DNA of 35,046 nucleotides from Flammeovirgaceae bacterium (lineage in GTDB: Bacteria > Bacteroidota > Bacteroidia > Cytophagales > Cyclobacteriaceae): contig QIMC01000390.1 in NCBI GenBank assembly GCA_003232185.1, positions 1-35,046 on the forward strand. Direction: 5' to 3'. The notes under the pieces are model-generated. The model saw only the letters and a list, made by a program, of their open reading frames with translations. It did not search any database and was not told the DNA's origin. Shown here one piece after another: positions 798 through 4,315 of the stretch (its first letter is position 1; every line of letters begins with the position of its first letter). Position numbers and translations under genes: made by a program.

Positions 798-950
798 ACT
801 TCTTTAAAAAATCGTTCCATAGCTGTGCCTCCGCTAAAGCTATGGCGACACGCGGAATGGCTATGTGCATATTTTTTGTCCCGAGTACTCGGGACCTGGG
901 AACAAAAATACCTGCGACTTATACCACACAGTACACTGAACTTAACACTA
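798..950 (-). repeat. Partial inverted copy of the 2881-3096 element
   Basis: Near-identical to the reverse complement of 2883-3039, ending in the same aacttaacacta terminus; contains perfect palindrome gtcccgagtactcgggac (878-895). Confidence 0.85.
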
Positions 951-1607: not shown

Positions 1608-2870
1608 TCAACCTACCACTACTTTACTTAAATTCTCCAGTACTAAATATTCTTGAGCCAATTGCCGGATTTTTATACTGTCAATTTCCATTATAGTTTG
1701 GACATAATTCTGATAAAAGCTATAGTCCAGTCCGCCATAATGAATGGTTTTAAACTTATCAGCCAGGGCAAAAGGGGTATCTGTTTCAGATATAAATGTG
1801 CCCAGCATGTAGTTTTTTACCGTGTCAAGTTCTTCGTTTGAGACCAACTCATTTTGCAGGATCTTGATTTCTTTTATAATTTCATTAATAGTTTGATCTC
1901 TGAATTCTTTTTTCACTTCTGTACTGATAACTAACATACTGTTGTGTTTGAGACAACTAATTCCAGAATGTATGCCATATGTGTACCCCTTATCTTCTCT
2001 GATATTACGCATCAATCGGGAACCGAAATAACCTCCAAGAATCTCGTTTACTACCAGTATAGCATTGAAGTCAGGGTGGTGGCGATTAATAAATGTCATT
2101 CCCATCCGTACTGAGGATTGCAAGCTTTCCTCTTTTTCTATTAGCAAACTCGATGGGTTATATTTATATGGCAATACTGTAGATTCTAATCGAGAAAATT
2201 TTGGAATTTGACCAATTAACTCATTGATCCTTTTCAGATCATCTTCGGTCACCTTTCCTGCAACTACTATTTCGAAATTCCCTTCCAGTTGCTTAGTATA
2301 GAACTCAGAGACCAGCTCAGCTGTGGTATTGTCAATATCTTCGCTATTCAAAGATCTTCCGTATGGATGCTCTTTCCCAAATACGTTTCCAGTAAATTTT
2401 TGAGCAGCAATGAAGCTGTTCTTTTCAAGGTCCACCAATAATTGTTGCTTCTTCAGCTGTTTTATATTTTGGAGTTCAGCATCTCTGAAGGCAGGCTTAC
2501 TGATAATTTCTACGATTACTGGTAACAAAGTAGCAAGGTGCTTGGTTAGCAGGTGGATAGACAGGGTAATGCGGTCAAATCCTGGGATCACTTCCACAAA
2601 AGCACCTAGGTTATCAAATACCATAGAAACTTCTTGCGCTGATTTCGATATGGTACCCTCTGTGAGCATTTTTCCAGTGAAATAGCTAAGACCGGGTTTG
2701 GTTTCGAACCATTTTCCTGCCTTGAAAATGATTTCCAGTCGCATCACTGGTTGTTGTCCAGCATTTAAGTAAAACAAGGGAACCCCATTGTTCAAGCACA
2801 CTTCTTTTGCCTCTTGAAGTGATACCTGATCAATTGGTTGTATGATCGGGGCAATTGTTCTATCCGGCAT
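1608..2870 (-). CDS. M16 family metallopeptidase-like protein, apparently non-catalytic subunit
   Basis: M16 fold; 'GGYFGSRLMRNIREDKGYTYG' matches the M16 R/Y region; the expected HxxEH zinc site is replaced by 'GLSYFTGKMLTEGT'. Confidence 0.88.
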   Translation of the reverse strand: MPDRTIAPIIQPIDQVSLQEAKEVCLNNGVPLFYLNAGQQPVMRLEIIFKAGKWFETKPGLSYFTGKMLTEGTISKSAQEVSMVFDNLGAFVEVIPGFDRITLSIHLLTKHLATLLPVIVEIISKPAFRDAELQNIKQLKKQQLLVDLEKNSFIAAQKFTGNVFGKEHPYGRSLNSEDIDNTTAELVSEFYTKQLEGNFEIVVAGKVTEDDLKRINELIGQIPKFSRLESTVLPYKYNPSSLLIEKEESLQSSVRMGMTFINRHHPDFNAILVVNEILGGYFGSRLMRNIREDKGYTYGIHSGISCLKHNSMLVISTEVKKEFRDQTINEIIKEIKILQNELVSNEELDTVKNYMLGTFISETDTPFALADKFKTIHYGGLDYSFYQNYVQTIMEIDSIKIRQLAQEYLVLENLSKVVVG

Positions 2871-2880
2871 AAAAATGCTG

Positions 2881-3096
2881 GCTAGTGTTAAGTTCAGTGT
2901 ACTGTGTGGTATAAGTCGTAGGTATTTTTGTCCCTAGGTCTTCGAGTACTCGGGACAAAAAATATGCACATAGCCGCCATTCCGCGTGTCGCCATAGCTT
3001 TAGCGGAGGCACAGCTACGTAAGTATTTTTTAAAGAAGTATGGGGCAAAAAGAGCAAGACTTGGTTTGGCTAAAGTATGCTTAACTTAACACTAGC
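2881..3096. mobile_element. MITE-like non-coding element with 14-bp terminal inverted repeats
   Basis: Left end gctagtgttaagtt (2881-2894), right end aacttaacactagc (3083-3096), exact inverted repeats; internal stem-loops including tatttttgtccc...gggacaaaaaata; second copy at 798-950. Confidence 0.55.
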
Positions 3097-4315
3097 TGTC
3101 AAAGTTGAATAATAAACTGAATCTAAGGGTTTCAGCAAGCGGATGTTCTTGCTCAGTAGGGATTAAATAGGCAAAATCAAGCCCGAATACCTGGTACCTG
3201 AAACCTAAACCTATGGTAAAATATTTCCTGTTTCCTTTATTTTGGTTCTCGTAGAAATAGCCAGCACGGGCTGCAAACAGGTCATTGTACCAATACTCGG
3301 CTCCTATAGAAATCATAACCTCTTGCATTTCTTCACTAAACCCATCGGGTGCGTCAAAAAATGAACCAAACATTCCGGAGATTACGCCGCGGTTGGGATC
3401 CTTTCCTTTTGAAATTTCAGGATCTCCATTTGGATCAAATACAATATCTCCATTTTCGTCAGTTTCATAGATTGGAGGAGTTGGAACCATTAATTTGTTG
3501 AAATCCAAGGATAATGTAATGGTATTATACGCATCGAAGTTAGCCGTCCACGCTGTTCCCAATCGTAAATTCGTGGGTAAAAAATCTTTGGTTTCATTAT
3601 TTAGATAAGAGATCTTACCTCCAATGTTGGAAATAGATCCTGCAAATGAGATACTGGAAGTACTGGCACCCATTTGGAGGTCAGTTTTGTAATACACTGC
3701 AATATCTCCTGCAACTGATGTACCGGCCTTGACATCACTTCCTAAAGAAGCAATGTTTTGACTGATATTGCTATGAATAAATCGTAGACTAACTCCCACT
3801 CCAAGCTTTTCACTCAATTTACGTGAATAGGTGCCCCCTAATGACCATTCACGGGGTCGTACACTTCCATTTGAGACACCATTATCATTGAACAGGTCTA
3901 TATCCCCCAAATCAAAGTATCGTAATTCCATACCTACTGCTTGATCATCTGATAACTTGTAGTAACCTGATAGGTAAGACAAGGACATGTCGTTTACGAT
4001 TTTGCCTAACCAAGGAGTATAGTTTAAAGAAAACCCCATCTTCTTTTCTGCAAACGCCAGTTTCCCAGCATTCCAAAAAATGGCATTCGCATCTGCGCTG
4101 AGCGCCGATCCGGCATCTCCCATGCCTGCCGCTCTGGCATCAGGAGTAATTGACAAAAACCCGACTGCGGTGGTAATAACTCTTCTGGTGGTGTCTTGCC
4201 CTACAAATTGACCAAAACTAGAGTGAATTGAACCTAATTGTATCAATCCAAGAATTGCACCAAATATTAATTTATTATTCATTCCTATTCTTTTCAGGAT
4301 CACAAATTTAATCAT
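3092..4315 (-). CDS. porV: Type IX secretion system outer membrane protein PorV (LptO)
   Basis: 'VGFLSITPDARAAGMGDAGSALSADANAIFWNAGKLAF' signature, beta-barrel pattern, adjacent to porU; ATGA overlap with the porU stop. Alternative start at 4282 (MNNKLIFG). Confidence 0.93.
   Translation of the reverse strand: MIKFVILKRIGMNNKLIFGAILGLIQLGSIHSSFGQFVGQDTTRRVITTAVGFLSITPDARAAGMGDAGSALSADANAIFWNAGKLAFAEKKMGFSLNYTPWLGKIVNDMSLSYLSGYYKLSDDQAVGMELRYFDLGDIDLFNDNGVSNGSVRPREWSLGGTYSRKLSEKLGVGVSLRFIHSNISQNIASLGSDVKAGTSVAGDIAVYYKTDLQMGASTSSISFAGSISNIGGKISYLNNETKDFLPTNLRLGTAWTANFDAYNTITLSLDFNKLMVPTPPIYETDENGDIVFDPNGDPEISKGKDPNRGVISGMFGSFFDAPDGFSEEMQEVMISIGAEYWYNDLFAARAGYFYENQNKGNRKYFTIGLGFRYQVFGLDFAYLIPTEQEHPLAETLRFSLLFNFDS

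Follow-up and report, generated by a model that had tools for sequence, protein, structure and literature searches.

A probable IS630-type MITE at the porV stop codon of a Flammeovirgaceae bacterium, and the family of hairpin repeats to which it belongs

Between the gene for the type IX secretion protein PorV and an M16 peptidase-like gene of a Flammeovirgaceae bacterium lies a structured stretch of 216 bp, and the question raised by this locus is what such a sequence is and how it came to be there. It was studied within a window of 35,046 nucleotides, this being the whole stretch of contig QIMC01000390.1 that was analysed, and a first-pass annotation made from the sequence alone had read it as a non-autonomous transposable element or palindromic repeat. 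Further copies, empty sites and autonomous insertion sequences (ISs) with the same termini bear out the transposable reading, and positions 2883-3094 are very probably a non-autonomous MITE of the IS630/Tc1-mariner type, presumably mobilised in trans and inserted at a TA within CTAG. The repeat family, the ends common to autonomous ISs, the TA/CTAG site and the empty sites are directly supported. The MITE is positioned at the porV stop codon and upstream of the M16-like gene, and its parts are as follows.

1608-2870, minus strand: M16 peptidase-like protein gene (PF05193/PF00675; open reading frame), its ATG about 12 nt from the TA of the element
2883-2884, no strand: TA target-site duplication, left copy, in CTAG (from empty sites and counts of the flanks of termini)
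2883-2896, plus strand: left terminal motif TAGTGTTAAGTTCA, including the TA, which matches the ends of IS630-family ISs (L226, L229, L230 and others)
2885-3092, plus strand: the MITE proper, 208 bp with G...C ends and no coding capacity (from the terminal inverted repeats, family members and empty congener sites)
2906-2914, plus strand: left subterminal motif GTGGTATAA, 9 bp inward of the terminal motif, spaced as in the ISs
3081-3094, minus strand: right terminal motif TAGTGTTAAGTTAA, including the TA, equal to an end of the L229 IS and to an end of the L230 IS
3092-4315, minus strand: porV, type IX secretion outer-membrane protein (NF033710, 499 bits; open reading frame), its stop TAG overlapping the end of the element
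3093-3094, no strand: TA target-site duplication, right copy, also in the porV stop codon (TAG, minus strand)

The exact 14-bp inverted ends described at the outset, gctagtgttaagtt and aacttaacactagc (2881-2894 and 3083-3096), are present and lengthen to 23 nt at 87% identity, and the absence of coding capacity holds in that no open reading frame of at least 80 aa lies inside the element. The outermost GC/GC and TA of the 216-bp stretch are target site and lie outside the element, which with both TAs measures 212 bp. The first-pass annotation had seen no target-site duplication, and here it was mistaken, as the TA is duplicated within CTAG. Among 54 termini the base outside the TA is C in 43 and varies on one side only, and the first base of the element is G in 53, a pattern that fits duplication of TA within a preferred CTAG. 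At CTAG targets themselves a TA and a CTAG duplication are indistinguishable, so that the TA call rests on the off-consensus sites; a 4-bp CTAG duplication was set aside on account of this one-sided variation of the flanks. That IS630 favours a TA in CTAG is indicated by the title of Tenzen & Ohtsubo 1991, as cited in PMC2170065.

Empty sites had been proposed as a check, and they are found in three congeners, where the porV-M16 junction is without the element. On the minus strand the occupied junction of the host reads GACAGCTA[GTGTT...AACAC]TAGCCAGCATTTTTATG, and the empty ones read GATAACTAACCAGCAT..ATG in G002 (full form GATAACTAACCAGCATAGATG), GACAACTAGTGC..ATG in G001 (locus L020; full form GACAACTAGTGCTTCCGTAGATG) and GACAATTAACCATCC..ATG in G003 (full form GACAATTAACCATCCTTTATG), the junction of Cyclobacteriaceae bacterium DHS20C17 (L019) having the same sequence as that of G002, from which a Cyclobacteriaceae-like host seems likely. 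Since the element starts with G, the porV stop TAG is retained after insertion, and a survey of open reading frames around the copies revealed that the terminal TAG of the element forms the end of several neighbouring ones.

Searches with the full 216 bp and with the ends, as the first-pass annotation had advised, turned up 10 places in the host genome by BLAST and 45 exact occurrences of the terminal motif TAGTGTYAWGTYMA in the assembly of 3.34 Mb, where a reversed control pattern occurs 0 times. Many of the 45 form pairs about 166 bp apart. Had there been no other copies and no conservation of the termini, the terminal repeats might have been coincidental; the many copies and conserved ends exclude this. 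The host carries about 11 full-length relatives, among them three near-identical copies (C162, C100 and C108) of 164 bp each including both TAs, together with deleted forms down to 38 bp. Two main sub-families share a common core, namely A, with ends TAGTGTTAAGTT and resembling the window copy, and B, with ends TAGTGTCAAGTCAA, of which internally deleted forms of 38-83 bp retain only the ends. Deleted MITEs of 38-75 bp with intact ends occupy separate sites at L140 (C76), L139 (C64), L141 (C122) and L138 (C26). The further copy that had been suspected elsewhere in the window is also genuine.

798-950, minus strand: second copy of the MITE, right-truncated and chimeric, immediately downstream of the 5S rRNA gene

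This copy is inverted and is 94-100% complementary to the porV-M16 element over three blocks. It consists of A-type outer and B-type inner sequence, a composition that points to probable recombination between copies.

A covariance model was made from 18 members and applied to 247 genomes of the GTDB family, 33 of which had matches at E <= 0.001; these cover 22 of 85 genera. Copy numbers are lower bounds because at most 11 candidates were scored per genome. The strong matches are mostly 163-168 bp long. Weaker ones proved on inspection to be without the diagnostic ends, and those at L290, L292, L293, L295 and L298-L302 were excluded as members, so a safer count is about 20 genomes with clear relatives. 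This is a previously unnamed family of hairpin elements of about 165 bp, spread across many genera of one bacterial family. As far as the literature consulted shows it is new by sequence, a search for the end sequences having returned no transposon paper on this MITE family; the kind itself is already known.

An autonomous IS with the same termini had likewise been proposed as a check, and such ISs are found elsewhere in the GTDB family. The first with matching ends was a decayed IS630-family IS in genome G121, the N-terminal domain of whose transposase was then searched against 397 genomes. All eight of the best matches, which were inspected and belong to the same GTDB family, are loci with TAGTGTYAWGTYAA-type ends; both ends were found in five (L226, 1199 bp; L229 and L230, 1198 bp each; L224; L199) and one end only in L225, L227 and L228. 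The transposases match IS630 models (NF033545, DDE_3). In ISs and MITEs alike the terminal motif of 14 bp is followed, after a spacer of 9 bp, by a subterminal motif of about 9 bp, which is GACGG/GTCGT/TTCGGGTAA-like in both, and the subterminal motifs of the ISs (GTCGTGTAT, TTCGGGTAA and GACGTATTT) are spaced as in the window MITE. All 14 bp at the right end of that MITE recur unchanged at an end of the L229 IS and at an end of the L230 IS. Only the ends match, and derivation of the MITE by internal deletion of the ISs found was therefore rejected.

Within L226 (1456-2654) the transposase of the partner IS is split over two overlapping frames, which suggests programmed frameshifting or slippage, and in L227 (1180-1379), at the edge of a contig, a MITE-like end pair adjoins an IS630 element on its right. 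The host assembly, which is 87.7% complete and in 488 contigs, yielded no intact IS with these exact ends, and this absence is weak counter-evidence. The host's own full-length IS630 gene was considered as a partner and rejected, its ends, CTAGTACAACGTC, being different. That gene (C381, locus L191, 835-2117) encodes a 378-aa transposase within inverted CTAGTACAACGTC ends, which are nested in turn in a perfect inverted repeat of greater length, with further transposase-like genes on its flanks.

The window copy is longer than the 164-166 bp core because it contains two extra short palindromes.

2938-2950, plus strand: inserted short palindromic segment around CGAGTACTCG, 13 extra bases, absent from the 164-bp core and also in the 798-950 copy
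2978-3012, plus strand: inserted REP-like palindrome TCCGCGTGTCGCCATAGCTTTAGCGGAGGCAC, 32-35 nt, set in the central CCAT/AGCTA site of the MITE (from alignment with the core form)

Two strong interior structures had been noted earlier, and both palindromes, around CGAGTACTCG and GCGGAGGC, do exist; they are later insertions, specific to some copies, and lie outside the core structure. The REP-like palindrome is held in 35 extra bases of the window copy. In its 32-bp form it has an identical central position in both sub-families, is also found in C324, C28a and C127 of the host, and behaves as an indel at an orthologous copy, being carried by C127 of the host and missing from C87 of the sister genome G004 within the same flanks. 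A third palindrome of about 20 bp, CCTGCCTGGCGGCTGGCAGG, takes one fixed position in L017 (C15c), L018 (C7) and L080 (C65 of G004). Short palindromes GCCTTCGCCAAGGCTATGGCG, CCCGATAACTATCGGG and CCTGCCTTTGGCAGGCAGG, which resemble those nested in the MITEs, lie in the 23S-5S spacer (461-567).

The folding that had been recommended shows the 216 nt to be far more stably folded than dinucleotide shuffles (z -6.3 on the plus and -5.3 on the minus strand, with 0 of 200 shuffles as good), and family members form a single hairpin from end to end. Under the structure of a single member 77.9% of cells are paired, a share that drops to 38-47% with a slid partner. Covariation scores 0.229, compared with 0.126 in shuffles, of which 0 of 500 scored as high; the terminal repeats account for part of both signals. 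In 38 of 39 members the plus strand is the better folder, and columns with G-U exceed those with A-C (18 vs 8; singletons 10 vs 6) among members that share ancestry, which is at most a hint of constraint on one RNA strand. That the core of about 163-168 bp and its hairpin have been kept across genera by structural selection, the folded strand having a job, seems to us doubtful; such a job might be, for example, that of an RNA from the plus strand or of a DNA shape in the transposition complex, and the MITE family would then be more than a passive passenger.

The same strong fold, the covariation of the hairpin across copies and the better folding of the plus strand would also suit a structured RNA or cis-regulatory element under selection between porV and M16 (an attenuator, a stability element or an RNase III site) that is transposon-like only by resemblance. 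The sequence is, however, missing from this junction in three congeners, its copies adjoin unrelated genes with no bias in orientation, its ends match those of ISs, and an Rfam search of the window found no family on the element, the sole matches being the 23S end and 5S rRNA. As a conserved feature of the locus this account is largely refuted, and we consider it very unlikely overall.

Two other accounts keep the mobility and change the mover. A REP/REPIN-type palindromic repeat would owe its spread to a RAYT, a Y1 tyrosine transposase, instead of a DDE enzyme, and the inserted 32-bp palindrome is indeed REP-sized, with near-matches in other genera, REPs being described in PMC3733652 as palindromes of 20-40 bp, many of them GTAG- or CGTC-tagged. 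The whole element, at 164-212 bp, is nevertheless outside that size; its terminal inverted repeats are long, TA is duplicated, and the ends are identical to those of IS630 ISs. For the element this origin is highly improbable, and the REP/REPIN reading may be restricted to the nested palindrome. The CTAG seen on both sides of many copies might instead speak for a transposase of another family that duplicates CTAG (IS481, or IS5/IS4-like DDE enzymes), to which we attach almost no credence, given that the base outside the TA varies on one side only, that the G is fixed and that IS630 ISs carry the ends. The PF01609 (IS4/IS5-type) transposases of the genus were examined as movers and rejected, as their loci are without these ends.

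On the reading as an IS630-type MITE, an IS630-family transposase acting in trans would recognise the two-part ends, consisting of TAGTGTYAWGTYMA, a 9-bp spacer and an RNCGKRTAA-like motif. The element would be excised and pasted into a TA within CTAG with duplication of the TA, the cut-and-paste route being proposed by analogy with ISY100 (PMC2170065). One such insertion presumably struck the CTAG with which porV ends, preserving the stop TAG, and the leader ahead of the M16 gene would have gained about 210 bp of strong hairpin; we infer that expression of the neighbours may be affected. Overall the element is a well-supported and fairly ordinary mobile repeat. In Bacteroidota it provides a clean case of a bacterial MITE paired with IS630, in which the two-part ends match, the target is a TA in CTAG, and both empty sites and partner ISs are known. 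Its constant length, covarying hairpin and nested palindromes make the family useful for testing selection on MITE hairpins, and also for studying the insertion of tiny palindromes at set places.

Among known systems, ISY100 and IS630, of the Tc1/mariner superfamily, share TA duplication and ends of about 24 bp (PMC2170065) and differ in being autonomous, the window element having no transposase. The ISY100 transposase binds its 24-bp ends through an N-terminal double helix-turn-helix domain, and 30 bp of each end is enough for transposition, with duplication of TA (PMC2170065). RUP of Streptococcus pneumoniae, for which mobilisation by IS630-Spn1 has been proposed (PMC2229807, PMC3049150), was at the time of PMC2229807 the sole bacterial small repeat with a known matching IS, and repeats of its kind insert into one another (PMC3049150). 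Compared by description, RUP is likewise small and non-coding, resembles an IS630-family IS in its terminal repeats, inserts at TA and has a tight fold, and it differs in sequence, in host phylum and in its 107 bp and 9-bp terminal repeats, as against the 164-212 bp, 14-bp exact ends and second subterminal motif found here. The Correia/NEMIS elements of Neisseria, also compared by description, resemble the family in their terminal TA, long stem-loop and short and long forms (about 107 and 155 bp) distinguished by an internal segment, and differ in sequence and in having 24-bp terminal repeats (PMC2229807); unlike theirs, the difference between short and long forms here is a central REP-like palindrome. 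RUP with IS630-Spn1 and Correia/NEMIS are the closest known precedents.
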